The notes under the pieces: generated by a model
What the model was told of the DNA's origin: nothing
Database searches by the model: none
Seen by the model: the letters and a program-made list of their open reading frames with translations, nothing else
Position numbers and translations under genes: made by a program
In this document: piece by piece, positions 4,256-64,000 of the stretch
Position numbering within the stretch: the stretch's first letter is position 1
Layout: each line of letters opens with the position of its first letter
NCBI RefSeq assembly: GCF_029201565.1
Contig: NZ_CP104002.1
Span: 1,009,001-1,073,000, forward strand
Direction of reading: 5' to 3'
DNA: 64,000 nt
From: Devosia sp. SD17-2
GTDB lineage: Bacteria > Pseudomonadota > Alphaproteobacteria > Rhizobiales > Devosiaceae

Positions 4256-5371
4256 ATGGAACCGATCTGGACCATCGGCCTGATGACCGGCACCGTGCTC
4301 GACGGCAATATCGACATTGCCATGCTCAAGACCGATGGCGAGACCATCGCCGAGTTCGGGCCCTATACGCTGGCCCCCTACAATGCCGAGGTGCGCGCGC
4401 TGCTCGAAGAGACGCTGGCGGCGGCGCGGGCGTGGAATTTCGAGGGGCCGGAGCCGGAGATTTTTGCGCGGGCAGAAGCGGCACTGACCAAGGCACAGTC
4501 GCAGGCGGTGCTGGATTTCGTGGCGGCATCGGGCATGACGATGGCCGATATCGGCGTGGTCGGGTTCCACGGCCAGACGGTGTTGCACCGCGCGCCGCAG
4601 CCGGGGCGGATCGGCGATACGCGCCAGCTGGGCGACGGGGCGCTGATGGCCGAGATGCTGGGCACCAAGGTGGTCTATGATTTCCGCAGCGCCGATGTGA
4701 AATCGGGCGGGCAGGGCGCGCCGCTGGCCGCCACCTATCACCGGGCGCTGCTGCGAAAACTGGGCGTGGCCAAGGACACGGCCGTGCTCAATCTCGGTGG
4801 CGTGGCCAATGTGACCTATTGGGATGGCGAGGATGTGCTGGTGGCATTTGACACCGGTCCGGCCAATGCCCCGATCAACGACTTCATGAAGGCGCGCGGG
4901 CTTGGGGAAATGGACCGGGATGGCGCATTGGCGGCGACCGGATCGGTGGATGAGGAGCGGCTGGCAAAGCTGCTTGAGCACAAATATCTCGCGGCGGCCT
5001 ATCCAAAGTCACTCGACCGGTTCGATTTCCCGGCCAGCATGGCTGACGGGCTCGATGATGCGACCGGGGCGGCAACGTTGACGGCGTTCACCGCCGGGGC
5101 CGTGGGCAAGGCGCTGGACCTGTTGCCGAGCCGGCCGACGCGGCTGATCGTGTCGGGTGGCGGGCGGCACAATCCGACGCTGATGAAGATGCTTGGCGAA
5201 CGCGCCGGGGTCGAGGCGGTGAATGCCGACAGTGTGGGTTGGCGCGGCGATGCGGTGGAAGCGGAGTGCTTCGGGCTGCTGGCCGCGCGGGTTGTGCGCG
5301 GGCTGCCGATCAGTTTCCCAACCACGACAGGTGTGGCCCAGCCGATGCTGGGCGGGAAGGTCGTGGGGTAG
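4256..5371 (+). CDS. anmK: Anhydro-N-acetylmuramic acid kinase AnmK
   Basis: Cleaves the 1,6-anhydro ring of anhMurNAc and phosphorylates it to MurNAc-6-phosphate, the substrate of the MurQ encoded at 60052-60984. The 371 residues match the family length. Clear AnmK blocks are the N-terminal phosphate loop [11 protein letters not shown], the segment [11 protein letters not shown], the catalytic block [16 protein letters not shown] with its conserved aspartate, [10 protein letters not shown], and [11 protein letters not shown] near the C-terminus. It ends the left murein-recycling operon. A run of five T follows the stop but I see no stable hairpin before it. Confidence 0.96.
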
Positions 5372-38300: not shown

Positions 38301-40932
38301 CAACGAGAACCTCCCCGTCGAGCTGGGCATGCGCTTTTCCGTCGCCAATGCCGGCGTGATCAATGGCATCCGTTTCTACAAGGGGCCACAGAACACAGGG
38401 ACCCACACTGGGTCGCTGTGGACCAGCACCGGCACCCGGCTTGGGACGGTGACCTTCACCAATGAGACGGCCAGCGGCTGGCAATCGGCCAGCTTTGCCA
38501 GCCCGATCGCGGTGACTGCCGGCACCAGCTATGTCGTCTCGTATCACACGACGAGTGGATATTATTCGGCCAGCGGCGGCGCCTTTACCGCGCCGATCAG
38601 CAATGGCGGGATCACCGCGCCCCAGAGCGCCAGCGGCACGGGCAATGGGAATGGTTTGTTTGCCTATGGTGCCGGCGGCGTGATGCCGACCAACGCATGG
38701 AATGCGACCAATTACTTCGTTGATGTCTACTACGAGCCCAGCGCCAATAGCGCGCCGGTCGCCACCGCAGATACCGGCCTTTCCGTACAGCCCAATACGC
38801 CGCTGCAGATCCAGGCGGCGACGCTGCTCGCCAATGACACCGACGCCAATGGCGATACCCTTGTTATCACCGGCGTCAGCGGGGCCACCAATGGCATCGT
38901 GGCCTATAATGCGCAGACGCAGGTCGTGACCTTTACCCCGACCACGGGATATTCGGGCGCAGCCAGTTTCACCTATGCCATCACCGACGGGCGGGGTGGC
39001 GTCGCGTCGGCAAATGTCGGCCTGACCGTGGCGGCGGCCGCCAATCGAGTGCCGATCGCTACCAATGACACGGGCTATACCACCGCGCAGAACACGGCGC
39101 TGACGCTGGCCGCCGCGACGCTGTTGGCCAATGATACGGACCCGGACAGCGATCCCCTTTCGATCACCGGTGTCAGCAATGCGGTCAATGGCACGGCGGT
39201 CTATAATGCGCAGACCAATTCTGTGGTGTTCACCCCGACGGCCGGCTATTCGGGCGCGGCATCGTTCAGCTATGCCATCAGTGACGGCAGGGGCGGCACG
39301 GCCAGCGCGACGGTCGGCCTGACGGTGGCAGCGGGGGCCAATCGGCCGCCGGTCGCAACAAATGACACCGGCCTTTCGGTGCGCCGGAACGAGGCCACCC
39401 AGATCAGCGCAGCAACGCTCCTGGCCAATGACACTGACCCCGACGGCGATCCGCTGACCATTACCGGGGTCAGTGGGGCCACCAATGGCACGGTCGCCTT
39501 CAATGCGGCGACCAATGTCATCACCTTTACGCCGACCACCGGCTACACAGGGGCGGCGAGCTTTACCTACGCAGTGGCGGACGGACGGGGCGGGACGGCC
39601 TCGGCCAATGTCGGTCTGACCGTTGCAGCCGGGGTAACCGGGACCAATCTCTTTGCGGCCAATGCGACGCCTGCGACGACGACGGTCAACGAGAACCTCC
39701 CCGTCGAGCTGGGCATGCGCTTTTCCGTCGCCAATGCCGGCGTGATCAATGGCATCCGTTTCTACAAGGGGCCACAGAACACAGGGACCCACACTGGGTC
39801 GCTGTGGACCAGCACCGGCACCCGGCTTGGGACGGTGACCTTCACCAATGAGACGGCCAGCGGCTGGCAATCGGCCAGCTTTGCCAGCCCGATCGCGGTG
39901 ACTGCCGGCACCAGCTATGTCGTCTCGTATCACACGACGAGTGGATATTATTCGGCCAGCGGCGGCGCCTTTACCGCGCCGATCAGCAATGGCGGGATCA
40001 CCGCGCCCCAGAGCGCCAGCGGCACGGGCAATGGGAATGGTTTGTTTGCCTATGGTGCCGGCGGCGTGATGCCGACCAACGCTTGGAATGCGACCAATTA
40101 CTTCGTTGATGTCTACTATGAGCCCAGCGCCAATAGCGCGCCGGTCGCCACCGCAGATACCGGCATCGCTGTGCAGCCCAATACGCCGCTGCAGATCCAG
40201 GCGGCAACGCTGCTCGCCAATGACACCGACGCCAATGGCGATACCCTGACCATAACCGGCGTGAGCGGGGCCACTAATGGCACCGTGGCCTATAATGCGC
40301 AGACGCGGGTCGTGACCTTTACCCCGACCACGGGATATTCGGGCGCAGCCAGTTTCACCTATGCCATCAGCGATGGCCGGGGTGGCGTCGCGTCGGCAAA
40401 TGTCGGCCTCACCGTGGCGGCAGCACCGGTTGTGCCCAGCGGCATCTCGATCTTTGCGGCCAATTCGACGCCCGCGACCGTCTCGGTCAATGATCCCAAC
40501 GGGGTCAATCTCGGGATGAAGTTCACCAGTTCGGAGAACGGCTTCATCACAGGGGCAAAATTCTACAAGGGCCCCACCAATACCGGGCCGCATGAGGCAA
40601 CGCTGTGGAGCGCGACCGGGACCAATCTGGGGCAGGTGGCGTTCACCAACGAAACCGCCAGCGGCTGGCAGACGGCTAGCTTTGCCACCCCGATCGCCAT
40701 TACCGCCGGCACGACCTACGTGATTTCCTACCACACCAACGGGAATTACTCGGTGACTGGCCGAGGCATCGTGGAGTCGGTCACATCCGGTCCGCTGACT
40801 GCACCCTCGAGCACATCGAGCGGCGGCAACGGGCTCTATGGCTATGGCACCGCCAGCGCCTTCCCGACAAGCAGCTACAATTCCGCAAACTACCATGTCG
40901 ACGTCGTCTTCAACGCCCAGCTCGCGTCCTGA
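32398..40932 (+). CDS. Giant multidomain secreted protein: dimethylformamidase-like head, DUF4082 and cadherin-like repeats
   Basis: A 2844-residue protein with no signal peptide, which fits type I secretion by the exporter pair encoded just downstream. Order of parts: an Ala/Ser/Pro-rich disordered N-terminus (1-215); a cysteine knot C220, C223, C228, C231; an N,N-dimethylformamidase beta-subunit-like domain (about 300-770, with GHDEYW at 531-536 and GNEVYW at 559-564); an Ig-like domain (about 780-875); then six DUF4082-like domains (segments such as GIRFYKGPQNTGTHTGSLW) interspersed with ten cadherin-like domains (LLANDTDPDGDPLTITGV, probably calcium-binding). The last domain (about 2681-2844) is DUF4082-like. 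I see no RTX nonapeptides. Three near-identical 462-residue units occupy about 1291-2676. A surface or matrix adhesin is the likeliest role; whether the head is enzymatic is unknown. Confidence 0.88.
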   Translation: MPVERYSIAEAQRTNQSTLSWVGVSSLSRGARDGRTQKFRRSSDQARFAVSRENGKPAAALRERHALARTDWLASEKSLSANALISAGAAAPVTYFSGASDAGAVPAFTARALEPVVPPSLAPAASFDAGAAAGGMVQSAAAATLLPGTAGAIVSGANLEAMPTPSASQSPSPVAEPPAKILQTSASQTSVSASEGDPAQAASMLDWRTSWLNAAALTPCGSCTGRACTMCSVRTGGPTASNGQPTGYSARVLDLYKPEENVTSDASMGLARATTASLMNPDAAPNAIVLENMKQGTPESVWLINAHDPTIEGFADQFSLNRGETVDFKINTNSTDYTVDIYRIGYYNGDGARLIDTIERDLTTAQSQPLPIFDPETKLVDAGNWSVTTSWAVPEDAVSGIYFAKLTRHDGSMGENMIPFIVRNDDEPSDITFQTADTTWQAYNWWGGYNFYGGVDGGLRTGRASKVSYNRPIITRDGGFAAGPQDYIFGAEYPAIRFLEQNGYDINYISGIDSAADAAQLLNSKIFLSVGHDEYWSGEQRDNVEAARDAGVNLSFWSGNEVYWQTRWETSIDGTGTPYKTLVSYKERWDNRDSDPDGTTSTWRDPVLGSGRPENALTGTMFTVDSYRLDAIDVPYDMSNLRFWRNTDVANINPGEVYTLTKNLLGYEWDSDVDNGFRPAGLVPLSSTTVDVNTLLLDYGTSTGPGTADHSLTLYRAPSGALVFGAGTVYWSWGLDSNHDLERTPTDPNVQQAMINLFADMGVQPATLMQSLVAASQTTDNVAPTTTINALSEPLEAAKTVTITGTATDTGGGLVSVVEVSTNGGQSWHRATGGDTWSYSWTPLVAGDYTIMSRAVDDSINLETPGAGRTVTVEQGGSGTLFAPGETPSTPFVLDNRAVNLGVTFSSNQAGSIMGVRYFKGTGNSGEHIGSLWTSTGELLARATFRNETPSGWQTVIFDNPVSITAGTTYVASSYGIGYAASTDYFTSPQPRGPLTSTGGLYSYGGASALPTTSSTSNYWVDVVFSGVPTPNAPPVGNNDDGYLVQRDTPITFAMSTLLANDTDPNNDELTVIGAGSASNGTVTFNAAAQTLTFTPSAGYTGPASFGYSISDGRGGTGAAMVNMTVSSAVSTSSLFQPSDTPTNLSNSDPAQVNLGVKFVASAGGLINGIKYYKSALDTGTHTGSLWSSTGTLLATATFVNETASGWQTVMFSNPVPIAAGQTYVASYHSNGRYATTSNYFNTSHTSGLLTAPAGANGVFSYGLANAMPTDSFGSTNYWVDVIMTSTETSANRAPVATNDTGFTTSQNTALTLSATTLLANDNDPDSDPLSITGVSNPVNGTAVYNAQTNSVVFTPTAGYSGAASFSYAISDGRGGTASATVGLTVAAGANRPPVATNDTGLSVRRNEATQISAATLLANDTDPDGDPLTITGVSGATNGTVAFNAATNVITFTPTTGYTGAASFTYAVADGRGGTASANVGLTVAAGVTGTNLFAANATPATTTVNENLPVELGMRFSVANAGVINGIRFYKGPQNTGTHTGSLWTSTGTRLGTVTFTNETASGWQSASFASPIAVTAGTSYVVSYHTTSGYYSASGGAFTAPISNGGITAPQSASGTGNGNGLFAYGAGGVMPTNAWNATNYFVDVYYEPSANSAPVATADTGLSVQPNTPLQIQAATLLANDTDANGDTLTITGVSGATNGIVAYNAQTQVVTFTPTTGYSGAASFTYAITDGRGGVASANVGLTVAAAANRVPIATNDTGYTTAQNTALTLAAATLLANDTDPDSDPLSITGVSNAVNGTAVYNAQTNSVVFTPTAGYSGAASFSYAISDGRGGTASATVGLTVAAGANRPPVATNDTGLSVRRNEATQISAATLLANDTDPDGDPLTITGVSGATNGTVAFNAATNVITFTPTTGYTGAASFTYAVADGRGGTASANVGLTVAAGVTGTNLFAANATPATTTVNENLPVELGMRFSVANAGVINGIRFYKGPQNTGTHTGSLWTSTGTRLGTVTFTNETASGWQSASFASPIAVTAGTSYVVSYHTTSGYYSASGGAFTAPISNGGITAPQSASGTGNGNGLFAYGAGGVMPTNAWNATNYFVDVYYEPSANSAPVATADTGLSVQPNTPLQIQAATLLANDTDANGDTLVITGVSGATNGIVAYNAQTQVVTFTPTTGYSGAASFTYAITDGRGGVASANVGLTVAAAANRVPIATNDTGYTTAQNTALTLAAATLLANDTDPDSDPLSITGVSNAVNGTAVYNAQTNSVVFTPTAGYSGAASFSYAISDGRGGTASATVGLTVAAGANRPPVATNDTGLSVRRNEATQISAATLLANDTDPDGDPLTITGVSGATNGTVAFNAATNVITFTPTTGYTGAASFTYAVADGRGGTASANVGLTVAAGVTGTNLFAANATPATTTVNENLPVELGMRFSVANAGVINGIRFYKGPQNTGTHTGSLWTSTGTRLGTVTFTNETASGWQSASFASPIAVTAGTSYVVSYHTTSGYYSASGGAFTAPISNGGITAPQSASGTGNGNGLFAYGAGGVMPTNAWNATNYFVDVYYEPSANSAPVATADTGIAVQPNTPLQIQAATLLANDTDANGDTLTITGVSGATNGTVAYNAQTRVVTFTPTTGYSGAASFTYAISDGRGGVASANVGLTVAAAPVVPSGISIFAANSTPATVSVNDPNGVNLGMKFTSSENGFITGAKFYKGPTNTGPHEATLWSATGTNLGQVAFTNETASGWQTASFATPIAITAGTTYVISYHTNGNYSVTGRGIVESVTSGPLTAPSSTSSGGNGLYGYGTASAFPTSSYNSANYHVDVVFNAQLAS
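36268..37653 (+). repeat. Tandem repeat unit 1 of 1386 bp inside the giant gene
   Basis: Encodes 462 residues: two cadherin-like domains, one DUF4082-like domain and a third cadherin-like domain. Its first domain has diverged from the matching part of units 2 and 3 (roughly 80 percent identity by eye up to about 36376). From there on the unit is almost identical to the others. Confidence 0.9.
37654..39039 (+). repeat. Tandem repeat unit 2 of 1386 bp inside the giant gene
   Basis: Same domain order as unit 1 and offset from it by exactly 1386 bases. By eye it differs from the neighbouring units at only a handful of bases over long stretches, for example CGCATGG against CGCTTGG near 38695 and CTTGTTATC against CTGACCATA near 38860. 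This points to recent duplication or gene conversion. Confidence 0.92.
39040..40425 (+). repeat. Tandem repeat unit 3 of 1386 bp inside the giant gene
   Basis: Nearly identical to unit 2 until the last cadherin-like domain, where GGCATCGCTGTG replaces GGCCTTTCCGTA (near 40163) and the unit ends just before the final DUF4082-like domain. The three units together cover 4158 bases in one frame. Confidence 0.9.

Positions 40933-53149: not shown

Positions 53150-53153
<4 letters not shown>
52728..53153 (-). CDS. GNAT-family N-acetyltransferase
   Basis: A 141-residue GNAT protein and last gene of the right-hand murein-recycling operon. The acetyl-CoA loop appears as LFVSEGLRGQGWAPRLLEAAEAEARTRGC (RGQGWA in place of the usual RGxGxG/A) and the final strand-helix as ALKTYQRAGYTIFGEL. 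The start is the ATG that overlaps the stop of the ATPase gene as ATGA; the frame continues upstream to 53360 inside that gene. The acceptor is unknown; context suggests an amino sugar or peptide from cell-wall turnover. Confidence 0.87.
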
Positions 53154-54054
<901 letters not shown>

Positions 54055-54058
<4 letters not shown>

Positions 54059-54873
54059 GAATTGGCCTCGCGGGAAATCTGGGTGCCGTGCAGCTTGGGC
54101 ATGGAGGCCCAGAGGCGGCGCGTATAATCGTGCTGAGGCGACCGGTAAATGGTCTGGGCGTCGTTGACCTCCACCAGATTGCCTTCGAGCATGATGCCGA
54201 TACGGTCGGACACCTGCACCATGAGCGAGAGGTCGTGGGTGATGAACAGCACGGCGAAGCCGAGCTGCTTGCGCAGTATGTCGATGCGCTGGAGAATCTC
54301 GCGCTGCACCACGACGTCGAGCGCGGTGGTGGGCTCGTCCATGATCAAGAGCTTGGGATTGAGCGCCAGGCAAATGGCGATGACGATGCGCTGGCGCATG
54401 CCGCCCGAGCACTGGTGGGGGTAGGCGGAGAGACGGTCGGGGGAAATGTCGACGAGCTTGAGCAGCTCGGCAGCGCGTTCCTGGGCCTTGGCTCGGGTGA
54501 TGTCGGTGTGGGTGCGCAGCACGTCGTAGAACTGCTCTTCGATGGTCAGCACCGGATTGAGCGAGTTCATGGCGCTCTGGAACACCATGGCAACTTCGCG
54601 CCAGCGGAATTTTCGCAGTTCCTGATCGTCGAGGGTGAGCACGTCGCGGCCGTCCACGAGGATTTCACTACCCTTGCGGATGAGGGCGGGCGGGCGGTGG
54701 AGGCGCGAAACGGCGAAGGCGATGGTCGACTTGCCGCAACCGGATTCGCCGGCGAGGCCGAAGAGTTCACCCGGCTGGATGTCGAAACTGACGTTCTTGA
54801 CGGCCGAAAAATCCTTTTCGGCGCCGATGTAGTCAATGGTCAGATTGCGGACGGAGAGGACAGGAGTGGTCAT
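54055..54873 (-). CDS. Peptide ABC transporter ATPase, DppD-like
   Basis: A 272-residue ATPase starting MTTPVLSVRNLTIDYIG. Walker A is GESGCGKST near residue 41, MVFQSAMNSLNPVLTI is the Q-loop segment, CSGGMRQRI is the signature and [12 protein letters not shown] is Walker B. The final part contains the oligopeptide block YRSPQHDYTRRLWASMPKLHG, shorter than in many DppD proteins, so the iron-sulfur-type cysteine extension is absent. It is coupled on both sides by four-base overlaps. Confidence 0.94.
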
Positions 54874-55757
54874 AGCTTGCCTTCTCCGGCGTGTACCATG
54901 CGCGTCCAGCGATTGAGCATGCCGCCGGTACGCAGGCGCGGGTTGGCGATTTCGTCGATGGCAAAGTTCACCAGCGCCAGACCGAGGCCAAGGAAGGCCA
55001 GGGCAAAGCAGGGCGAGAGCAGATCCCACCAGGCGCCGACCGAGAGGGCCGAGGCGTTCTGGGCGTTATAGAGCATGATGCCCCAGGAGACGGTGTTCGG
55101 ATCGCCGAGGCCGAGGAATTCAAGGGTGGCTTCAGCGATGACGGCGAAGATGACGCTGCCGATGAAATTGATGCCGACGATGGAAATCAGGTTCGGGAAA
55201 ATCTCGAAGGCCATGATGCGCCAGCTCGGCTCGCCCAGCATTTCAGCGGACTTCACATAGTCGCGCTGGCGGATGGAGAGGGTTTCCGAGCGGGTGACGC
55301 GCACGCCCCAGGCCCAGGAGGTAAGGCCGAGAATGATGGCAATGACCATCGGGCTGGCCTGGCCAATGAAGGCGGCAAGCACCAGCAGCAGGGGCAAATT
55401 GGGGATGACCAGCACCATATTGGTGAAGAAGTTGATGACCTCGTCGATCACGCCGCCCTTGTAGCCGGCGATGATGCCGAGGATGGTGCCGATGATGGTG
55501 ATGAGGAGGCCAGCGCCAAAGCCGACGGCAAGCGACACGCGCGCGCCGTGGATCAGGCGGGAGAAGACGTCGTGGCCAAGGCGGGTGGTGCCGAGCCAAT
55601 GATCCCAGGATGGGGCCTGATGCGGACGGCCGACGCGCTTGGTCGGGCTATATTCAGTGAGGAAGGGCGCAAAGATCGCAACAAGCAGGATCAGCGTAAT
55701 GATGGTCAGACCGACCACCGCCTTTTTGTTGTGCATGAGCTGGCGGAGCAGGGGCAT
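54870..55757 (-). CDS. Peptide ABC transporter permease, DppC-like
   Basis: A 295-residue inner-membrane permease. It opens MPLLRQLMHNKKAVVGLTIITLILLVAIFAPFL, followed by the DppC-type segment HWLGTTRLGHDVFSRLIHGARVSL. The permease EAA loop is IRQRDYVKSAEMLGEPSWRI and the C-terminal helices end NFAIDEIANPRLRTGG, a typical DppC ending. It lies three bases after the DppB-like gene and overlaps the DppD-like gene by four. A YejE-type assignment is possible, but length and N-terminus favour the DppC group. Confidence 0.93.
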   Translation of the reverse strand: MPLLRQLMHNKKAVVGLTIITLILLVAIFAPFLTEYSPTKRVGRPHQAPSWDHWLGTTRLGHDVFSRLIHGARVSLAVGFGAGLLITIIGTILGIIAGYKGGVIDEVINFFTNMVLVIPNLPLLLVLAAFIGQASPMVIAIILGLTSWAWGVRVTRSETLSIRQRDYVKSAEMLGEPSWRIMAFEIFPNLISIVGINFIGSVIFAVIAEATLEFLGLGDPNTVSWGIMLYNAQNASALSVGAWWDLLSPCFALAFLGLGLALVNFAIDEIANPRLRTGGMLNRWTRMVHAGEGKL

Positions 55758-55760
55758 GGC

Positions 55761-56738
55761 TCAGGCCTTCTTGAGGCGCGGATCGAGCAGGACATAGCTC
55801 AGATCGACGACGAAATTGGAGATGAGCATGGCGGCGGTCATGATCAGGAGCTGGCCCTGGATCACGGGATAGTCGCGCGCGAGGATGGCCTGGTAGAGCG
55901 TATTGCCGAGGCCCGGATAGTTGAACACCACCTCGATGATCAGCGAGCCCGACAGGATCGTACCGATGGCGATGGCAAGGCTCGAGACCGTCGGCAGCAG
56001 CGCGTTACGGGCGGCATACCAGAGCATGACGTTCTTGTCGGAAAGGCCCTTTGCACGGCCCATGACGATATAGTCCTCGCCGAGGAGATTGATCATGTTG
56101 TTGCGCATGGTGACGGCAAAGCCGCCCGAGAGCGCGATGACCAAGGTCACCATTGGCAGGGTGCCGTGGTAGATGACGCTCGAGATATATTCCCAGCTGA
56201 AGGCGGGATCGAGCATCGGGTCTGCTGCATAGCCATTGGGGAACCAGCGCAGGGTATAGCCGAACAGGAACAGCATGATCAGCGAGATGACCACGGCCGG
56301 CACCGAGCTGCAGAAGATCGCCAGGAGGGAAACAACCGAGTCAAAGCGCGAGCCACGGCGCCAGGCTGCCATGACACCCATGAAGGTGCCGAGCGTGAAG
56401 CTGATCAGCGTGGCAATGCCGACGAGGCCAAGCGTCCAGATCAGCGCGCGGCCGAGCAGTTCGGTGACGGGCAGGGGGAAATATTTGATCGAGCGGCCGA
56501 GATCGCCGGTGAAGACGCTCTTGAGATAGGAGAAATATTGCTCGTGGACCGGCGCGTCGATGAAGCCGAAGGTGAGCTTCAGAGCGTTGAGGTTTTCGAG
56601 GCTTAGTTCCGAGCCGGCGCTGGCGAACATGATCTGGATGGGATCACCCGGCATCAGGCGTGGCAGGAAGAAATTGATTGTGGCGGCGGCGAGGAAGGCC
56701 GCGAGGTAGAACGCCAGGCGTCGCAGCAGGAAGCCCAT
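55761..56738 (-). CDS. Peptide ABC transporter permease, DppB-like
   Basis: A 325-residue permease with an N-terminal helix (LRRLAFYLAAFLAAATINFFLPRLMPGDP, the PGDP motif being diagnostic for DppB/OppB). A periplasmic segment follows with DAPVHEQYFSYLKSVFTGDLGRS, then five more helices, and the cytoplasmic loop LLGEDYIVMGRAKGLSDKNVM. The final helices end VVDLSYVLLDPRLKKA. It is separated from the binding-protein gene by 105 bases containing a strong hairpin, which probably sets its expression below that of the binding protein. Confidence 0.94.
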   Translation of the reverse strand: MGFLLRRLAFYLAAFLAAATINFFLPRLMPGDPIQIMFASAGSELSLENLNALKLTFGFIDAPVHEQYFSYLKSVFTGDLGRSIKYFPLPVTELLGRALIWTLGLVGIATLISFTLGTFMGVMAAWRRGSRFDSVVSLLAIFCSSVPAVVISLIMLFLFGYTLRWFPNGYAADPMLDPAFSWEYISSVIYHGTLPMVTLVIALSGGFAVTMRNNMINLLGEDYIVMGRAKGLSDKNVMLWYAARNALLPTVSSLAIAIGTILSGSLIIEVVFNYPGLGNTLYQAILARDYPVIQGQLLIMTAAMLISNFVVDLSYVLLDPRLKKA

Positions 56739-56843: not shown

Positions 56844-58502
56844 TTATTGAGCGGCAGGCTCGAGGTCGAGCAGCTGCAGCAGGCGCGCCGGATTGGCGTT
56901 GGACACGACCGGCGAGTACTTCGGATTTTCAGCATCCGCCCAGCCGGTGAAGCGGGTGGTGTTGTACTCGTAGAAGGACGGGCTGTTGTAGAGCGGCACG
57001 ACCGGCAGGGCTTCAGCCACGATCAGCTGGATCTTGTCCATGGCCGACTTGCGGGCCTCCGGATCCTTGCTCTGCTTGTATTCGCTGAGCAGGGCCGAGA
57101 CTTCCTCGCTCGACCAGTGCGGCGCGGTGAAGCGCGACTTGCCGAAGTCATCCGGGTTGTAGGAACGGATGTAGGGGAAGTAAGGGTCAGCAGCCGAAGC
57201 CAGGGCATTCAGCGTCATCGAGTATTCACCCGAGATGAGCGCAGAGGTCCACACGGCGGCTTCCGGGGTCGACATCTTCACGTTCAGGCCGGCTTCCTGC
57301 ATGGTCTCCATGGAGATCTGCACGGCGTCGATCCAGTCGGTCCAGCCATTGGGAACCATGAAGTCGATGGCGATCGGAGTGCCATCGGGATTGTCGCGGA
57401 AACCGTCATTGTCTGCGTCGACATAACCGGCTTCGTCGAGGAGGGCGATACCAGCGTCGAGGTCGAACTTGGCGTACTTGCCGAACTGGGTCTCGACTTC
57501 GGGGTTGGCGAAGGCGGAGTAGAGTTCGCCGAGGCCCGAGGGATCCTCGTTAACGAGCGGGTAGCCGTAGCCGGCGATGTCAACGATGGTCTGGCGGTCG
57601 ATCAGCATCGAGAGCGCGCGACGGAAGTTGACGTCGTTATAGGCCTTGCGGGCGTTCTCGTCGGGCGAGACCTGGCTCATCTGCAGCGAAACGAGGCTGG
57701 AGGGGGTGAACCAGTACTTGTGGTGCTCCGGATCCTTGGCAACGAATGTGTTGTCGATGTCCGGAATGAAGCTGGTTGCCCAGTCGAGCGTGCCTTCGGC
57801 CAGGGCAGCCAGAACCTGGGGATTGTCAGCCAGCTGCGGCATGCGCAGGCAGTCGACGGAGAGGTTGGCAGCGTCCCAATAGTGCGGGTTGGCGCACTGT
57901 TCGTAGACCTGGGGCGTGAAGCGGGTGATCTCGGTCATCGGACCGGACGCAACCGGGTTCTCGTTGGCAAAGGTCACCGGATCTTCGATCGAGGCCCAGA
58001 TGTGCTCGGGCACGATCGGCATGTCGACGATGGTGTTGGCGATCAGCGAGTTGGCTTCGGTAAGGTTGAAGCGCACGGTGCGGTCGTCGACCTTTTCCAC
58101 CGAGGTCAGCTGCTGGGAAACCGAGATGAAGTCCAGCGCCGGGAACTTCTTGATGTAGTCATAGGTGAAGATGATGTCGTCGGCGTCCAGCGTTTCGCCG
58201 TCGCTCCACTTGAGACCTTCACGCAGGGTGAAGGTGATCGACATCAAATCGTCGGCCAGCTCGAAGCTTTCAGCGAGGCGGTAGTGGGGTTCATTGCCCC
58301 TGAGGCGGTTGAACACGACCAGCGGCTCGTACATGAAGTGGAGCGTGGTGTAGCGGGCAGAAGTCTGACCGAACGGGTTGAAGTTGCGCACGAACGTGGT
58401 GGTCTGCTCCGAGCTTAGCGTCAGCACGTTCTGGGCAAAGGCGGGGGCCGCCATTGCCAGCACTGCGGCGGACGTTGCCGCCAGAAGTGTGAGTTTCCTC
58501 AT
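56844..58502 (-). CDS. Peptide-binding protein, family 5 solute-binding (DppA/OppA type)
   Basis: A 552-residue periplasmic binding protein. The signal peptide is clear (MRKLTLLAATSAAVLAMAAPAFAQ, cleavage after residue 24). Family 5 blocks include YEPLVVFNRLRGNEPHYRLAESFELADDLMSITFTLREGLKWSDGETLDADDIIFTYDYI and NVNFRRALSMLIDRQTIVDIAG-like sequence at FRRALSMLIDRQ. It delivers ligand to the permeases encoded downstream. Next to NagZ and MurQ the ligand is probably a muropeptide or peptide from murein, as proposed for the YejA-type systems of rhizobia, but this is inferred. It follows nagZ by 27 bases. Confidence 0.94.
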   Translation of the reverse strand: MRKLTLLAATSAAVLAMAAPAFAQNVLTLSSEQTTTFVRNFNPFGQTSARYTTLHFMYEPLVVFNRLRGNEPHYRLAESFELADDLMSITFTLREGLKWSDGETLDADDIIFTYDYIKKFPALDFISVSQQLTSVEKVDDRTVRFNLTEANSLIANTIVDMPIVPEHIWASIEDPVTFANENPVASGPMTEITRFTPQVYEQCANPHYWDAANLSVDCLRMPQLADNPQVLAALAEGTLDWATSFIPDIDNTFVAKDPEHHKYWFTPSSLVSLQMSQVSPDENARKAYNDVNFRRALSMLIDRQTIVDIAGYGYPLVNEDPSGLGELYSAFANPEVETQFGKYAKFDLDAGIALLDEAGYVDADNDGFRDNPDGTPIAIDFMVPNGWTDWIDAVQISMETMQEAGLNVKMSTPEAAVWTSALISGEYSMTLNALASAADPYFPYIRSYNPDDFGKSRFTAPHWSSEEVSALLSEYKQSKDPEARKSAMDKIQLIVAEALPVVPLYNSPSFYEYNTTRFTGWADAENPKYSPVVSNANPARLLQLLDLEPAAQ

Positions 58503-58529: not shown

Positions 58530-59555
58530 TCAGGCGACGCCACTCTCCCTGAAAATCTGTTCCACCTCGGCATGGAGTGCTTGCACGTCCACGCGGTGTG
58601 TTCCCAGCCTGCCCTCTGCGCGTGCAATGCGCTCGAGGCTTTTCTCGCTCAAGGGCCGGGCTGCTTTGCAGGCCGCCAGACTTTGAGAAAGGTCGCCCTG
58701 GCTATGAAGGGCTATATCGTAGCCGGCGTCGAGGGCTGCGGTGACCCGCTCATCCCAGCTGCCGGAAAGGGCGTCCATGGTGAGGCAATCGGTGATCAGT
58801 ACGCCATCGTAGTCCAGCGTATCGCGGATCAGCTCGCAGACGCGCGGCGAGATGGAGGCCGGCAGGTCTGGATCGATCTGGGTAAAGATCAGATGGGCTA
58901 CCATTGCCCAAGGCGTGTCCTTGAGACGGATGAAGGGCAGGAAGTCGGTGTCCATCATCTCCTCGACCGAGGCGCGGACAACCGGCAGGTCGTGATGCGG
59001 GTCGACGTCGACGCGGCCATAACCGGGGATGTGCTTCATGATCGGCATGGAGCCGACCTCGAGCAGGGCCTCGATCGCCACGCGACCAAATTCAGCGACG
59101 AGCTCGGGATCTGAACCCAGCGAGCGCGACGAGATGATGTCGTGGGTGCCGGAACGGGCCAGATCAACCACGGGGGTCGTGCCCGAGCCGATGTTGAGCT
59201 CACTCATCATCGAACCCATGGCCAGATGGCTCTGGCGCAGGGCGTGTTTGGCCAGTTCGCGGTCGGTCTTGGCCAGCGCGGCAAAATGGCCGAGCGGACG
59301 GAAGAGGGGCCAATTGCCATTGTCGAGGCGCTGCACGCGGCCGCCTTCCTGGTCGATATAGACCGGGGCGTCGTCGCGGCCGACGGCTTCCTTGAACTGG
59401 CTGACCAGGCGATGGATCTGGTCGTGGTTGTCCAGATTGCGCTTGAAGAGAAAAAGGCCAAACGGACTGGTCTCGCGGAAGAAAGCGATCTCGTCAGCGG
59501 AGAGCTCGTAGCCCGGCATGCCGACGAAAAGGGCGAGAGGGGTGGTCGAGGCCAT
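58530..59555 (-). CDS. nagZ: Beta-N-acetylhexosaminidase NagZ
   Basis: Family 3 glycosidase that removes GlcNAc from GlcNAc-anhMurNAc fragments in the cytoplasm. The 341 residues have no signal peptide. Visible motifs are IDQEGGRVQRL at 68-77, the catalytic loop KHIPGYGRVDVDPHHDLP (K174, H175, and H187 equivalent to the His of the usual DSH, here DPH) and the nucleophile block LITDCLTMDAL (D256). Canonical members read KHFPGHG and DSH; the G-Y and D-P changes are substitutions within the loop that keep the catalytic histidine. It supplies GlcNAc and anhMurNAc for AnmK. Two bases separate it from the GNAT gene upstream. Confidence 0.93.
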   Translation of the reverse strand: MASTTPLALFVGMPGYELSADEIAFFRETSPFGLFLFKRNLDNHDQIHRLVSQFKEAVGRDDAPVYIDQEGGRVQRLDNGNWPLFRPLGHFAALAKTDRELAKHALRQSHLAMGSMMSELNIGSGTTPVVDLARSGTHDIISSRSLGSDPELVAEFGRVAIEALLEVGSMPIMKHIPGYGRVDVDPHHDLPVVRASVEEMMDTDFLPFIRLKDTPWAMVAHLIFTQIDPDLPASISPRVCELIRDTLDYDGVLITDCLTMDALSGSWDERVTAALDAGYDIALHSQGDLSQSLAACKAARPLSEKSLERIARAEGRLGTHRVDVQALHAEVEQIFRESGVA

Positions 59556-59557
59556 GA

Positions 59558-60049
59558 TCAGTGTTCCGCTTCGGGCTTGGGCTTGATGCGCAGCAGGCCC
59601 TGATAAATGTCTTCATTGTCCGACGGGATCGGCATGGCGCCAGCGGCTTTGACGTAGAAGTCGACAGGACCGGCCGAGCCGATAATGGCATAGGCATAGC
59701 CCTGGGCCTTCATCGCCACGAGAGTGTGATAAAAGAGCGCGAGGCCTATTCCCTTGCCGCGCTGGTCTTCGGAGACGCCGGTGGGGCCGAAGAAGCCGCG
59801 TGCCGTGGCGTCGTGGCAGGCAAAGCCGACCAGTTGCCCATCAACGGTTGCGATGAGGCATCCGGGCGGCTGGTGGGCCATGGCGGAAGAGACTTCGCTG
59901 ACCCAATATTCGGAAAAGTGCTGGCGCACCCAATCCTTGATGATGTGCTGCTCGGGCGGCAGGGCGACGCGGATCGTCGCCTCAACGGCCTCGGCCTTCT
60001 GGCGCAGCTCATCCATCTTGCGGGAGTAGAGATTGACCAGGAGGTCCAT
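59558..60049 (-). CDS. GNAT-family N-acetyltransferase in the murein-recycling operon
   Basis: A 163-residue GNAT protein. The central strand reads CLIATVDGQLVGFACHDAT and the acetyl-CoA loop GVSEDQRGKGIGLALFYHTLVAMKAQGY (RGKGIG), followed by AYAIIGSAGPVDFYVKAAGAMPIP. The N-terminal 50 residues form a helical segment with HIIKDWVRQHFSEYW. It lies two bases after murQ and two before nagZ, so it is tightly within the operon. An amino-sugar acetylation role would fit the context, but no substrate motif is recognisable. Confidence 0.88.
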   Translation of the reverse strand: MDLLVNLYSRKMDELRQKAEAVEATIRVALPPEQHIIKDWVRQHFSEYWVSEVSSAMAHQPPGCLIATVDGQLVGFACHDATARGFFGPTGVSEDQRGKGIGLALFYHTLVAMKAQGYAYAIIGSAGPVDFYVKAAGAMPIPSDNEDIYQGLLRIKPKPEAEH

Positions 60050-60051
60050 GG

Positions 60052-60984
60052 TCAGCTCGCGATGCGCGGATGATCGGCGGCGGCGCGGCGCAGGAAGCCG
60101 TCGGCGCCGTCGAGGGCGGCACGGGCATCGGTCGCGTTCATGCCGGTGAGGGCCATGAGGATCGCCAGCTTCACATTATTGCCGGCCTCGGCGAGGTATT
60201 TTTCCGCATCCTCGGTGGAGCAGCCAGCAACGTCGGCCAGCATGCGCGTAGCGCGGGCGGCGAGCTTGGCGTTGGAGACCGAGAGGTCGACCATGAGGTT
60301 TTCATAGCTCTTTCCGATCCGGATCATGGAGGCGGTGGTGAGCATGTTCAGCACCAGCTTCTGGGCGGTACCGGATTTGAGGCGGGTCGAGCCGGTGAGG
60401 GCTTCTGGGCCGACGACGGGCGAGATGGCGATCTTTGCAATATCAGCGATTGCCGAGACGGGATTACAGGAGAGGGCGACAGTGGTCGCGCCGATCTCGT
60501 TGGCATAGTCCAGCGCGCCAATGACATATGGGGTGCGGCCGCTGACGGCGATGCCCACCAGCACGTCGCGCGCTTCGAGCTTGATGTTTTCGAGATCGCG
60601 GCGGCCCTCGGCGCGATCATCTTCTGCGCCTTCGATCGGGTGGCGCAAGGCGTGATCGCCGCCGGCGATGATGCCAACAACCATGGTGGGCGGAACGCCG
60701 AACGTGGGGGGACATTCAGAGGCGTCCAGCACGCCCAGTCGACCGCTGGTGCCCGCGCCGGTGTAGATCAGGCGACCGCCGGCCTTGAAGGCTTCGACGA
60801 TGCAGTCCACTGCTTCTGCGATCTGCGGCAGCACCGCGTTGACAGCGCCGGCGACCTTGGCGTCTTCGGCATTCATTGCGGCCAGAATTTCGCTGGTCGA
60901 CATGAGATCGATCTGCAGCGTGTCTGGATTGCGCGACTCGGAGACCAGGTGTTCCAGTTCCGCGATCAGGGTGCTTTTTGCCAT
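60052..60984 (-). CDS. murQ: N-acetylmuramic acid 6-phosphate etherase MurQ
   Basis: Cleaves the lactyl ether of MurNAc-6-P to give GlcNAc-6-P and D-lactate, linking AnmK's product to amino-sugar catabolism. The 310 residues have the SIS fold with [24 protein letters not shown], which contains the sugar-phosphate loop and the catalytic glutamate, then [19 protein letters not shown] sequence and [38 protein letters not shown], the MurQ signature. The C-terminal helical segment ends with the CUE-like [15 protein letters not shown]. It is the first gene of the nine-gene minus-strand operon and is divergent from the RpiR-type regulator, with palindromic operator candidates between them. Confidence 0.97.
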
Positions 60985-61015
60985 CGTGCCATCACTCTTG
61001 GGGTAGGGTGATGCT

Positions 61016-61062
61016 ATGAACGAATATTCCGCCTGTCAACGAAACTTGGAATATTGTATTCC
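61016..61062. promoter_or_regulatory. Paired operator candidates between murQ and the RpiR-type regulator
   Basis: GGAATATTGTATTCC at 61048-61062 is a perfect palindrome around a TTG centre. A half-site, AATATTCC, ends a second 15-mer at 61016-61030, so the two centres (61023 and 61055) are 32 bp apart. The same motif and spacing recur before the sugar importer at 62120-62166. The sites lie 32 to 78 bases upstream of murQ, where an RpiR-family repressor would act. The binding protein is inferred from position. Confidence 0.75.
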
Positions 61063-61237
61063 GGATTGAACAGGGATGTGTGTAGAGTGGTGGAAAACCG
61101 GCGCATGTCCGGTGGCGCACTTTGCGGCGCGGGGGAGGTCGCCCCAGTAGTCGTCCGTGTGGGCTTTCGAGTCTTCTGACCGGACTATGGCGCCCGGGGT
61201 AACGGCGTGCTGCGCCGCATCAGTGATGGAAACTACT

Positions 61238-62086
61238 ATGTCGGTTCTCAAACTGCTCGAGGCGCAGAAGGCGTCGATGACCCTGGCGGATCGGGAGATC
61301 GCCGAGTTTATCCTCGCGGACCCCGGCCGGATGCTGGACCTGTCTTCGGCTGCGCTGGCGGAGGCGACCGGACGCAGCCAGTCGAGCGTTGTCAAATTCA
61401 GCCAGAAGCTGGGCTATTCCGGCTACCAGCAGCTCAAGATGGCCGTCACCACGGCCCGCGCCCGGGAGTGGCACGCGCCCAGTGGGGTGATCCACGGATC
61501 GATCGACAGCAGCGACAGCCAGATGACCGTGGTGCAGAAGCTGGTGAGCAGCAAGCTGCAGTCGATGCGCGAAACAGCGGCGGCCAATAGCGAAGACACG
61601 ATCAACGCTGCGCTCGAAAAGCTGGTCGGAGCCCGCAAGCTGTTGCTGGCCGGGGTGGGCGCGTCTTCGCTCGTGGCCGAGGATTTTTCCTACAAGCTGC
61701 TCAAGCTGGGGCGGATGGTTCTGCTCAACAGCGACAATCACATCCAGATCTCCAATGCGTCGGCCTTGACGGAAGGCGACGCGCTGATGGCCCTGTCCTA
61801 TTCAGGACGGAGCGTGGAAACACTGCGCATTGCCGAATTGGCCAAGGCGCGGGGCGCCACGGTGATCTCGGTCACGGGGTTGCAGTCCAATCCGCTCGCC
61901 GATGTCGCCGACATCAAGCTTTTTACGGTAGCCGACGAGGACCGGGTGCGCTCTTCGGCGATCACTGCGCGGGACGCGCAGCTGATGCTGATGGACATGC
62001 TGTTCATCCTGCTGCTGCGCCATCAGGCCGACGCCAACGATTTTATTCACAACAGCGAAACGGCCGTGACGGTGCTCAAGGCCTGA
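61238..62086 (+). CDS. murR: RpiR-family transcriptional regulator, MurR-like
   Basis: Divergent from murQ, as in the E. coli murR-murQ arrangement. The 282 residues start at MSVLKLLEAQKASMT. The N-terminal HTH (about 1-75) reads LTLADREIAEFILADPGRMLDLSSAALAEATGRSQSSVVKFSQKLGYSGYQQLK, typical of RpiR. The SIS domain (about 125-260) has KLLLAGVGASSLVAEDFSYKLLKLG and ALSYSGRSVETLRIAELAKARGATVISVTG, which bind sugar phosphates, probably MurNAc-6-P as in MurR. Upstream ATGs at 61157 and 61226 add residues outside the family fold; GGA lies seven bases before 61238. It is expected to bind the paired palindromes on both sides of the gene. Confidence 0.88.
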   Translation: MSVLKLLEAQKASMTLADREIAEFILADPGRMLDLSSAALAEATGRSQSSVVKFSQKLGYSGYQQLKMAVTTARAREWHAPSGVIHGSIDSSDSQMTVVQKLVSSKLQSMRETAAANSEDTINAALEKLVGARKLLLAGVGASSLVAEDFSYKLLKLGRMVLLNSDNHIQISNASALTEGDALMALSYSGRSVETLRIAELAKARGATVISVTGLQSNPLADVADIKLFTVADEDRVRSSAITARDAQLMLMDMLFILLLRHQADANDFIHNSETAVTVLKA

Positions 62087-62119
62087 GCGGGCAGTACAAT
62101 TTCTCCACGGCGTGAATTT

Positions 62120-62166
62120 GTAATATTCTATTCTTGACACTTCCGCAGTTTGGAATTCAATATTCC
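62120..62166 (+). promoter_or_regulatory. Promoter with paired operators upstream of the sugar ABC importer
   Basis: GGAATTCAATATTCC at 62152-62166, read on the other strand, matches the murQ palindrome at 14 of 15 positions. GTAATATTCTATTCT at 62120-62134 matches at 12 of 15. Their centres (62127 and 62159) are again 32 bp apart. A consensus -35 box TTGACA lies at 62134-62139 between them, so the downstream operator would cover the -10 region. This predicts repression of the importer by the same regulator. Confidence 0.75.
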
Positions 62167-62240
62167 TAAGCTGTGGGCTCTCGCGTGGAGAGGCCCGGAC
62201 TGGAGCGCCTGCTCTCGAGCGGGTGCCCTAAGGAGGTATC

Positions 62241-63305
62241 TTGGCTCAACTGTCACTGCGCGGCATCAAGAAGCGTTTCAAGGACACGGCCGTGCTGCAC
62301 GGGATCGATCTCGAGATCGGTGATCGTGAGTTCGTGGTGTTTGTCGGCCCGTCCGGCTGTGGCAAGTCGACCCTTTTGCGTCTGATCGCCGGGCTCGATC
62401 CGATCACCGATGGCGAATTCGTCCTCAACGGACAGCGCATGAACGACGTGCCACCGTCGCGTCGCGGCATTGCCATGGTGTTTCAGTCCTATGCGCTCTA
62501 CCCGCATATGGACGTCTACGAGAACATGGCCTTCGGTGCCCGTCTGATGGGGCTCACCAAGGATGAGGTGGAGGCACGTATCGCCGAGGCGGCGCGGATG
62601 CTGCGGCTTGAGCCGCTGCTCAAGCGCAAGCCGCGCGAATTGTCTGGTGGGCAGCGGCAGCGCGTGGCCATCGGTCGGGCGCTGGTGCGCAAGCCGGCAG
62701 TGTTTCTGCTCGACGAACCGCTTTCCAACCTCGACGCGGCGCTCCGTTCGGAAGTGCGCCTCGAGATCGCCAAGCTGCACCGCGATATCGGCGGTACCAT
62801 GATCTATGTGACCCATGATCAGGTCGAGGCCATGACGCTGGCCGACAAGATCGTGGTGATGAATGCAGGCCGGATCGAGCAGGTCGGCAGCCCGCGCGAA
62901 CTTTACGAGACGCCGGCCAATACCTTTGTCGCGACCTTCATCGGTTCGCCGCGTATGACGCTGGTCGATGTCGAGCGCCGGGGCGAACGGCTGACCTTGG
63001 GCCAGGACGGCGGCAGCGTCGCGCTGGGCAATGTGCCCGCCGATGGCAAGCTCAAGCTTGGTATCCGCTCCGACGCGGTGAAGCTTTCCCGTGCAGCCGG
63101 CGAGGGGTTTGCCGGCCAGGTGGTCTACACCGAGTATCTCGGTGACAACGCCTATGTCTACGTACGCCTTGCCGATGGCACGCTCTTGGCGGCGCGCACG
63201 ACCCCCAATGATCTTTATGCACCCGACGAGATTGTGACGATCGGCGTCGACCCGGCCGGCGTGCATTATTTTTCCGCCGAGGATGGCCGGCGGTTGGCGC
63301 AGTAG
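62241..63305 (+). CDS. Sugar ABC transporter ATPase, UgpC/MalK family
   Basis: A 354-residue ATPase of the CUT1 carbohydrate type. Walker A is GPSGCGKST at 36-44, the Q-loop block GIAMVFQSYALYPHMDVYENMAFG, the signature LSGGQRQRVAIGRAL and Walker B VFLLDEPLSNLDAALRSEVR. The C-terminal TOBE-type regulatory domain follows from about 235 (TFVATFIGSPRMTLVDVERRGERLTLG). The start is a TTG with a very strong AAGGAGGT four bases upstream. It is probably in the regulon of the RpiR-type protein encoded upstream, and imports a sugar presented by the binding protein that follows. Its permeases lie beyond the window. Confidence 0.94.
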   Translation: MAQLSLRGIKKRFKDTAVLHGIDLEIGDREFVVFVGPSGCGKSTLLRLIAGLDPITDGEFVLNGQRMNDVPPSRRGIAMVFQSYALYPHMDVYENMAFGARLMGLTKDEVEARIAEAARMLRLEPLLKRKPRELSGGQRQRVAIGRALVRKPAVFLLDEPLSNLDAALRSEVRLEIAKLHRDIGGTMIYVTHDQVEAMTLADKIVVMNAGRIEQVGSPRELYETPANTFVATFIGSPRMTLVDVERRGERLTLGQDGGSVALGNVPADGKLKLGIRSDAVKLSRAAGEGFAGQVVYTEYLGDNAYVYVRLADGTLLAARTTPNDLYAPDEIVTIGVDPAGVHYFSAEDGRRLAQ

Positions 63306-63349: not shown

Positions 63350-64000
63350 ATGAAGAAGACCATGATCCGCGCCGGTGCCGCTCTTGGTGCCGTGCTCGTC
63401 GCGGCCCCGGCATTCGCCCAGGACATCACGTTCTGGAGCTGGCGCCAGGAAGACCGCGCTGCCTATGAGCAGTTCATCGATACGTTCGAAGCCGCCAACC
63501 CCGGCATCACGGTCAAGTTCGAGGCCTTTGAGGCGGCAAATTACAACACGATCCTGTCGACCGCGCTTGCTGGTGGCACGGGCCCGGACGTGATGATGGT
63601 GCGCGCCTATGGCGGCCTTGAGAACGTTGCTGCTGCCGGCTATCTCGAAGCGCTTTCGGCCGACAATGTGCCGGAACTGGCAGATTTCGCGGAGCCGGCT
63701 CTGGCTGCCGAGACCCTGCGTTCCGACGGCAAGGTCTACGCCGTCCCGTTCGCCAGCCAGACCCAGCTCGTGATCTATAACAAGGCCATTTTCGATGCCA
63801 ATGGCCTCGAAGAGCCCCAGAGCTGGGACGAGCTGGTCGCGCTGAGCCAGAAGCTCAAGGACGCCGGCGTTATCCCCTTTGCCAATGGCACTGCAACTGC
63901 CTGGCAGAATGAAACCGTGACCTTTGGCCTTGGCTCCTCGCTGATGGGCAAGGACTTCCATGAAGAGCTGATGGCTGGCACTGCCGACTTCACCGATGCG
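63350..64000 (+). CDS. Sugar-binding protein, family 1 extracellular solute-binding (3' end outside window)
   Basis: The first 217 residues of a periplasmic binding protein. A signal peptide is evident (MKKTMIRAGAALGAVLVAAPAFAQ, cleavage about residue 24). The mature part opens DITFWSWRQEDRAAYEQFIDTFEAANPGI, then LAGGTGPDVMMVRAYGGL, the hallmark family 1 segment preceding the hinge, DGKVYAVPFASQTQLVIYNKAIFDANGL and PQSWDELVALSQKLKDAG. AAGGGAAGGGA precedes the start. It lies 44 bases after the ATPase in the same transcript. An N-acetylated amino sugar is a guess from the regulator only. Confidence 0.95.
   Translation, partial: MKKTMIRAGAALGAVLVAAPAFAQDITFWSWRQEDRAAYEQFIDTFEAANPGITVKFEAFEAANYNTILSTALAGGTGPDVMMVRAYGGLENVAAAGYLEALSADNVPELADFAEPALAAETLRSDGKVYAVPFASQTQLVIYNKAIFDANGLEEPQSWDELVALSQKLKDAGVIPFANGTATAWQNETVTFGLGSSLMGKDFHEELMAGTADFTDA

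Follow-up and report, generated by a model that had tools for sequence, protein, structure and literature searches.

Uptake and reuse of cell-wall sugars are only partly known in alphaproteobacteria that lack AmpG, and a locus of Devosia sp. SD17-2 raises the question of whether one regulator governs both. In the window, by which we mean the whole analyzed stretch of 64,000 nucleotides at C1:1009001-1073000 of the genome, a gene for an RpiR-type regulator is flanked by two pairs of 15-bp operators (GGAATA-N3-TATTCC), one on the side of murQ and one on the side of a sugar ABC importer. A regulon joining these two operons had been proposed from the sequence of the window; conserved operators in relatives bear it out, with a membership larger than first claimed. 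The best explanation, to which we give a probability of about 0.8, is that a MurR-like repressor, probably responsive to MurNAc-6-phosphate, governs how a lineage without AmpG takes up and breaks down the sugars of peptidoglycan. The operators, their pairing, the promoter layout, and the membership of the regulon rest on comparison; binding, repression, ligand, and substrates are what we infer.

Operators and promoters at the locus

The sequence-only reading described the strong operator of the murQ promoter, GGAATATTGTATTCC, as a perfect palindrome. This holds for its 6-bp arms, GGAATA and TATTCC, but not for the 15-mer, whose asymmetric centre TTG gives three mismatches to its own reverse complement. 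A scan of the window returned both near copies reported on the importer side at the same coordinates and with the same counts (14 of 15 letters on the opposite strand and 12 of 15), and the partner on the murQ side is a half-site as described, its right arm perfect and its left arm wrong in five of six letters. In each promoter region the two centres lie 32 bp from one another, the identical spacing that had been claimed, and the TTGACA box said to overlap a site shares one base with the weak operator of the importer promoter.

None of 100 shuffles of the window reached the five matches to GGAATATTGTATTCC seen in it, a count that includes the strong murQ operator re-read on the other strand and an unrelated place with three mismatches at 10986. 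Across the 4.23-Mb, one-contig genome, GGAATATTGTATTCC with zero or one mismatch occurs only at two places, both at this locus, and exact GGAATWNNNTATTCC occurs only at the same two. Looser patterns are less telling: the arms alone with one mismatch gave 12 matches in the genome, as did a reversed control pattern, and the 15-mer at three mismatches gave 26 against 12 for the control, a mild excess only. The sole other near match inspected, an arm match at genome position 2502682 (L011), lies within open reading frames that we take to be suf-like. No RNA element matched Rfam at the gathering score between 52000 and 64000. Chance as the origin of the sites is rejected by the shuffles, the strict-mismatch genome scans, the reversed-pattern control in the genus, and the comparative counts given below.

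Both promoters (Table 1) have a layout whose positions suit a repressor. Read along the minus strand, the murQ promoter consists of the strong operator, 8 bp, TTGACA, 3 bp, the half-site GGAATATTC, and TAGCAT, so that the perfect arm of the half-site sits in the spacer between the -35 and -10 boxes. On the importer side, TTGACA adjoins the weak site, and the -10 position falls within the strong one. Protein held in such a spacer or over a -10 box would be expected to block polymerase.

Table 1. Features of the Devosia sp. SD17-2 locus, in window positions unless another scale is named.
Feature	Position	Strand	Basis or remark
Oligopeptide-type ABC ATPase 2	53150..54058	-	ORF, start inferred; named from sequence alone; orthologs in relatives
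Oligopeptide-type ABC ATPase 1	54055..54873	-	ORF; named from sequence alone; orthologs in relatives
Oligopeptide-type permease 2	54870..55757	-	Profile scans
Oligopeptide-type permease 1	55761..56738	-	Profile scans
SBP_bac_5 substrate-binding protein of oligopeptide-type ABC importer	56844..58502	-	Profile scan
GH3 enzyme, NagZ-like	58530..59555	-	Glyco_hydro_3; NF003740
GNAT acetyltransferase, operon gene 2	59558..60049	-	Profile scan; heads unlinked operon in relatives
murQ, MurNAc-6-phosphate etherase	60052..60984	-	TIGR00274, 414 bits (cut-off 302)
-10 box TAGCAT, murQ promoter	61011..61016	-	17-bp spacer; same hexamer in 35/39 relatives having that -35 box
Weak partner (half-site, right arm TATTCC), murQ promoter	61016..61030	+	Centre 32 bp from strong operator
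-35 box TTGACA, murQ promoter, between both operators	61034..61039	-	39/41 relatives, same offset in 38
Strong operator, murQ promoter	61048..61062	+	GGAATATTGTATTCC; 0-1 arm mismatches in 41/41 relatives scored
RpiR/MurR-type regulator (HTH_6 + SIS), 282 aa, presumed operator binder	61238..62086	+	Profile scans
Weak operator, importer promoter	62120..62134	+	12/15 match to GGAATATTGTATTCC
-35 box TTGACA, importer promoter	62134..62139	+	40/40 relatives
Strong operator, importer promoter, over -10 position	62152..62166	-	14/15 match to GGAATATTGTATTCC; at most 2 mismatches in 40/40 relatives
Weak -10-like CAATAT inside strong importer operator	62158..62163		Position
Sugar ABC importer ATPase (UgpC/MalK type)	62241..63305	+	NF008653, 447 bits (cut-off 432)
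Sugar-binding protein, continues past window end	63350..64000	+	AlphaFold model
Two permeases, nanE, BadF-type kinase, beyond window	L009:13658-17137 (C1:1073657-1077136)		First permease start uncertain

Conservation in the family and in rhizobia

In 136 genomes of the family, 74 places carry MurQ above the TIGR00274 cut-off, and for 60 of these, stretches of 12 to 20 kb were fetched; the window itself is one of the 14 outside that set. A regulator at least 55% identical is present in 42 of the 60, and removal of one locus whose regulator gene points the other way (L066) left 41 to be scored, a set that is not independent, one member (L073) being of the same species. The strong operator stands between murQ and the regulator in all 41 (0 mismatches in 35, 1 in 6). 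Its best partner lies 32 bp away in 40 and 33 bp away in one, with four or fewer of 12 arm mismatches in 35 loci and five in the other six; four or fewer occur at 0.4% of random positions. On the importer side, scored in the 40 loci with the ATPase downstream, the strong site is again always present (1 mismatch in 39, 2 in 1), and the best partner, with at most four mismatches throughout, lies at 32 bp in 36 and at 33 bp in 4. Elsewhere in 813 kb of these loci there is one further site with no more than one mismatch, so here, as in the strict scan of the genome, few matches fall at unrelated promoters. The motif is also kept in orthologous regions of other Hyphomicrobiales, and the 32-bp constraint proved to be 32 to 33 bp in Devosia and 31 bp in two more distant loci from another genus (L100 and L101, regulator 39 to 40% identical).

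Motif and regulator also occur together genome by genome. The genus is represented by 75 genomes. In 43 of them the regulator (E <= 1e-60) occurs, and in 52 exact GGAATWNNNTATTCC: every genome with the regulator has the motif, at summed strand counts of at least 2, and the motif is present in 9 of the 32 without it, each time at a count of 1 (Fisher p = 2e-12, treating genomes as independent despite their kinship). The reversed-pattern control gave two counts, both in one of the 75. With the regulator in only 43 of 75 genomes, the regulon is missing from part of the genus.

The sites also accompany operons that have come apart. Six genomes (G040, G048, G055, G060, G056, and G012) carry the GNAT and nagZ-like genes on a different contig from murQ; oligopeptide-importer genes follow them in five, and in G055 the contig stops after nagZ. 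The promoter of operator, TTGACA, half-site, and TAGCAT precedes the unlinked block in all six, with a partner by the mismatch measure in five. G033 has murQ on one contig and the regulator-importer operon on another, with operators at both. By this comparison of sequences, the paired operators mark a real regulon.

Extra operator pairs with 31-bp spacing stand about 170 to 215 bp upstream in five of the six unlinked operons (L102:5751-5796, L104:4965, L105:5592, L106:5478, and L107:5139-5184), where they would allow DNA looping. One regulator-importer operon (L110, genome G025) has no divergent murQ and carries a distant MurQ paralog (45% to murQ2) behind the kinase. A lone exact operator match without a partner lies between unrelated-looking genes in G042 (L103:5637-5651) and may be chance or an extra member.

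Named genomes yielded at least 544 relatives of the regulator, and the 80 best were carried forward. Fifty-nine of these 80, at 60 to 68% identity, come from Rhizobium, Neorhizobium, Mesorhizobium, Nitratireductor, Phyllobacterium, Pannonibacter, Brucella, and others, two being Devosia metagenome-assembled genomes (MAGs). Within this best-80 sample, an operator with at most one mismatch precedes the regulator in 57 of the 59 loci and murQ in all 56 loci where murQ was seen, that is, in all but three; one such site occurs elsewhere in 1.17 Mb of the same loci. In 35 of the 56, a second site with four or fewer mismatches lies 31 to 33 bp from the murQ operator, most often at 33 bp. Where loci were read closely, murQ is the first gene of an operon for an oligopeptide-type importer, and the operon extends into a gene for a serine hydrolase. 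AnmK (at least 67% identical) is encoded directly behind the hydrolase gene in at least 32 of the 59, a lower bound since 28 of the 32 matches run off the fetched end.

In 54 of the 59 loci (within L141-L201; for example, L144:8506-9762, minus strand) a murA paralog diverges from the regulator gene, with an operator between the two and a NagK-type kinase gene right behind murA. Of seven such genomes searched, six have at least two MurA proteins exceeding the TIGR01072 cut-off; the exception, Pannonibacter, is without the paralog at the locus. The motif GGCxIGxRP, whose cysteine we take to be the catalytic one of MurA, is present in 52 of 55 murA-like tblastn matches, three alignments being without it. 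From this arrangement, an enzyme of peptidoglycan synthesis seems to be controlled by the salvage regulator in rhizobia. Sixteen plasmid records, 15 of them from Rhizobium, hold a stretch similar to 60900-62300 of the window, and the five of them that were listed match the regulator gene at 70 to 71% DNA identity.

The regulator and its proposed target genes

Control of murQ by MurR is already known from E. coli, where MurR is encoded divergently from murQ and responds to MurNAc-6-phosphate. The Devosia regulator belongs to the RpiR family (PF01418, 68.9 bits against a cut-off of 28.3; PF01380, 79 against 25). Its score of 161.3 bits with the MurR equivalog model NF012026 is far under the cut-off of 408, and we therefore call the protein MurR-like, not MurR. 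Like MurR systems, it has murQ diverging from it and operators in the region between, and among solved structures its profile matched the SIS domain of E. coli MurR best (159 bits), followed by 8ju9/8k3b (145) and 4ivn (133), the last presumably Vibrio NanR. A copy in a Devosia MAG (L122) is 100% identical, which places the genome in Devosia (Hyphomicrobiales). Passages of PMC12713135 report RpiR crystal structures as tetrameric and E. coli MurR as tetrameric in solution, and propose that the Streptococcus pneumoniae NanR tetramer bridges a full site and a half-site. A spacing of 32 bp, three helical turns, is consistent with a tetramer on one face of the DNA.

Behind murQ the operon continues with GNAT, nagZ-like, and oligopeptide-importer genes. 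The GNAT gene is present in 19 of the 21 fetched murQ loci that have a nagZ-like gene at least 70% identical and, by analogy, its product could re-acetylate de-N-acetylated anhydro-muramic ends, which MdaA makes in Agrobacterium according to passages of PMC10838918. The GH3 enzyme is called NagZ-like since its 181.4 bits with NF003740 fall below the cut-off of 207. The permease score with the model for the YejB microcin C permease, NF011712, was 145.4 of 445 bits; Opp-type models scored higher (Opp2B, 232.5 bits) and likewise stayed under their own cut-offs.

Searches of the whole genome with TIGR00901 gave no match for AmpG, the control search being positive in 5 of 14 genomes, Caulobacter and E. 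coli among them. Passages of PMC9790009 report Rhizobiales as AmpG-less and importing muropeptides by an ABC transporter. The genome has AnmK, NagA, and a single MurA above its cut-off, and the best NanA match, at 248 bits, stayed below the cut-off of 382. The organism's own anmK, at 4271-5356 of the window, is outside both operons and has no 15-mer match nearby at up to three mismatches. A second murQ operon (L049:7331-15720; genome C1:2002330-2010719) encodes a Gfo/Idh oxidoreductase, a murQ paralog, a sugar ABC importer, and a BadF-type kinase, with a divergent GntR/LacI-type regulator and without the operator; open reading frames near it are, we assume, duplicated integrase- or transposase-like genes. 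Elsewhere in the window, 32398-40932 forms a 2,844-aa open reading frame with long near-identical internal repeats.

On the other side of the regulator, the sugar-binding protein is found in 40 of the 42 family loci with the regulator, and nanE and the BadF-type kinase gene both follow in 39 of those 40, L060 ending before them. NanE scored 249 bits with NF002231 (cut-off 189), and its best solved match was 4utt (E = 4e-48). The AlphaFold model of the sugar-binding protein (pLDDT 81) is nearest to chitin-oligosaccharide-binding proteins, which are five of its top six chains with many sugar binders close behind. Fold matches of the kinase model, which has a pLDDT of 90, include MurK, NagK, and Sulfolobus hexokinase. 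Sulfolobus hexokinase ranks best by both sequence and fold, Clostridium MurK 8zo3 is fourth by Foldseek and second by sequence at about 21% identity, and human NagK is close behind; judged by model and sequence, the kinase would fit the three about equally. Its GGRG motif is that of Sulfolobus hexokinase, where MurK 8zo3 and NagK have GGWG, and speaks against a simple MurNAc-only reading, the Sulfolobus enzyme being said in passages of PMC10465942 to clash with the lactyl group. No gene for the phosphotransferase system (PTS) permease MurP is in the mapped operons, which hold ABC importer genes instead. The sugar importer may carry MurNAc, anhMurNAc, or a related fragment, and nanE in its operon leaves room for ManNAc among the substrates and for an amino-sugar alternative.

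Mechanism, alternatives, and meaning

According to our preferred reading, a regulator tetramer, or dimer of dimers, would hold the strong operator and its weaker partner on one face of the DNA and cover the -35/-10 region of the murQ and importer promoters. Peptidoglycan fragments would enter as muropeptides through the oligopeptide-type importer and as an amino-sugar mono- or disaccharide through the sugar importer. The NagZ-like enzyme would split GlcNAc-MurNAc, and MurNAc-6-phosphate would be made either by AnmK, acting on anhMurNAc, or by the BadF-type kinase, acting on MurNAc. As the substrate of MurQ and the product of AnmK, MurNAc-6-phosphate is the likeliest ligand; its binding by the SIS domain would release both operons, and with kinase, MurQ, and NanE the sugars would end as GlcNAc-6-phosphate. 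This reading draws on the operator pairs with their single background site in 813 kb, on the co-occurrence of motif and regulator, on the unlinked and split operons under the same operators, and on the rhizobial operators, with a NagK-type kinase in the controlled block and AnmK behind the serine hydrolase. It also draws on the top profile match to the SIS domain of E. coli MurR and on a genome with AnmK and NagA in which AmpG was not found. Counting against it are nanE, a ManNAc-6-phosphate epimerase gene unneeded for MurNAc catabolism, the GGRG motif, the low NF012026 score, and a weak murQ site that is no more than a half-site in Devosia sp. SD17-2. So do the incomplete pairing outside Devosia (35 of 56 murQ promoters), the lack of an operator near its own anmK and at the second murQ operon, and the activators described for the RpiR family in passages of PMC12713135.

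The presence of nanE could point to another ligand: the regulator might mainly answer ManNAc-6-phosphate or GlcNAc-6-phosphate, within a general regulon for ManNAc/GlcNAc uptake that murQ has joined. A true NanE and a kinase nearest by sequence to hexokinase, MurK, and NagK do end the importer operon in 39 of 40 loci, and an RpiR-family NanR binds ManNAc-6-phosphate according to passages of PMC12713135. We nevertheless consider this unlikely: NanA over its cut-off was not found in the genome, importer loci beside the regulator or a homolog are without nanE in the mapped stretch at L100, L101, L157, and L177, and the regulator profile is closer to MurR than to other solved RpiR proteins. In addition, among the 59 more distant loci from the best 80 of at least 544 relatives, none shows nanE and 56 have murQ.

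The regulator could instead act from these sites as an activator, as some RpiR proteins (passages of PMC12713135) and, reportedly, GlaR do, but sites in a -35/-10 spacer or over a -10 box, where bound protein would obstruct polymerase, make this quite improbable. We give very little credence to the sites belonging to another factor, with the adjoining regulator unrelated to them. Binding by the regulator is predicted, and many families bind palindromic A+T-rich sites, but the motif follows the regulator from genome to genome (43/43 against 9/32), the sites travel with the regulated operons, and the regulator's own gene is preceded by one in 57 of 59 distant loci.

The Devosia system resembles the E. 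coli MurR-murQP system in its RpiR/SIS regulator divergent from murQ, its paired sites, and MurNAc-6-phosphate as the likely signal. It differs in having ABC importers and a separate BadF-type kinase in the mapped operons where E. coli has the PTS permease MurP, and in a second controlled promoter. The Agrobacterium YejBEF-YepA system, in passages of PMC9790009, likewise has a peptide-family ABC importer in place of AmpG in Rhizobiales, whereas the Devosia importer genes follow murQ and a nagZ-like gene in one operon headed by this operator; the MurNAc route given for Agrobacterium is AnmK-MupP-AmgK-MurU, and murQ is absent from the main text of that paper. The kinase has the BadF/NagK-type fold of Clostridium and Tannerella MurK (passages of PMC10465942), although it is about 21% identical to MurK, carries GGRG rather than GGWG, and ranks Sulfolobus hexokinase first. 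The S. pneumoniae NanR of PMC12713135 is, in the passages concerned, also an RpiR regulator with a strong site, a degenerate half-site, and a proposed tetramer bridge, but it activates sialic acid genes with the half-site 23 bp downstream, in contrast to the repressor-like layout and 32-bp centres in Devosia. In the open-licence literature we found no account of this operator or regulon, whether of operator pairs three turns apart, of control over two ABC importers, NanE, and a kinase, or of a murA paralog under the same operator in rhizobia, and MurR is not in the main text of a survey of proteobacterial regulons (PMC5343134).

More tentatively, and at slightly less than even odds, we propose a regulon common to the AmpG-lacking order Hyphomicrobiales, in which a MurR-like repressor reading MurNAc-6-phosphate controls ABC importers, kinase, AnmK, and MurQ. 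Rhizobia would add, on that signal, another MurA, dedicated to recycling, that rebuilds the MurNAc dismantled by MurQ. The Devosia module would have gained two parts: a GNAT that possibly re-acetylates de-N-acetylated anhydro-muramic ends, and a sugar ABC importer whose cargo may be a disaccharide of the GlcNAc-MurNAc type, which the NagZ-like enzyme would then cleave in the cell.

Defined by operator sequence, spacing, promoter layout, and member genes, the regulon points to a kinase and two candidate importers as acting in a common response, joined in rhizobia by a second MurA. Here ABC importers would serve where the best-known bacteria use other transporters, and the import and breakdown of cell-wall sugars appear to be switched on together. 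The regulon offers a natural sensor of peptidoglycan fragments in soil and plant-associated bacteria.
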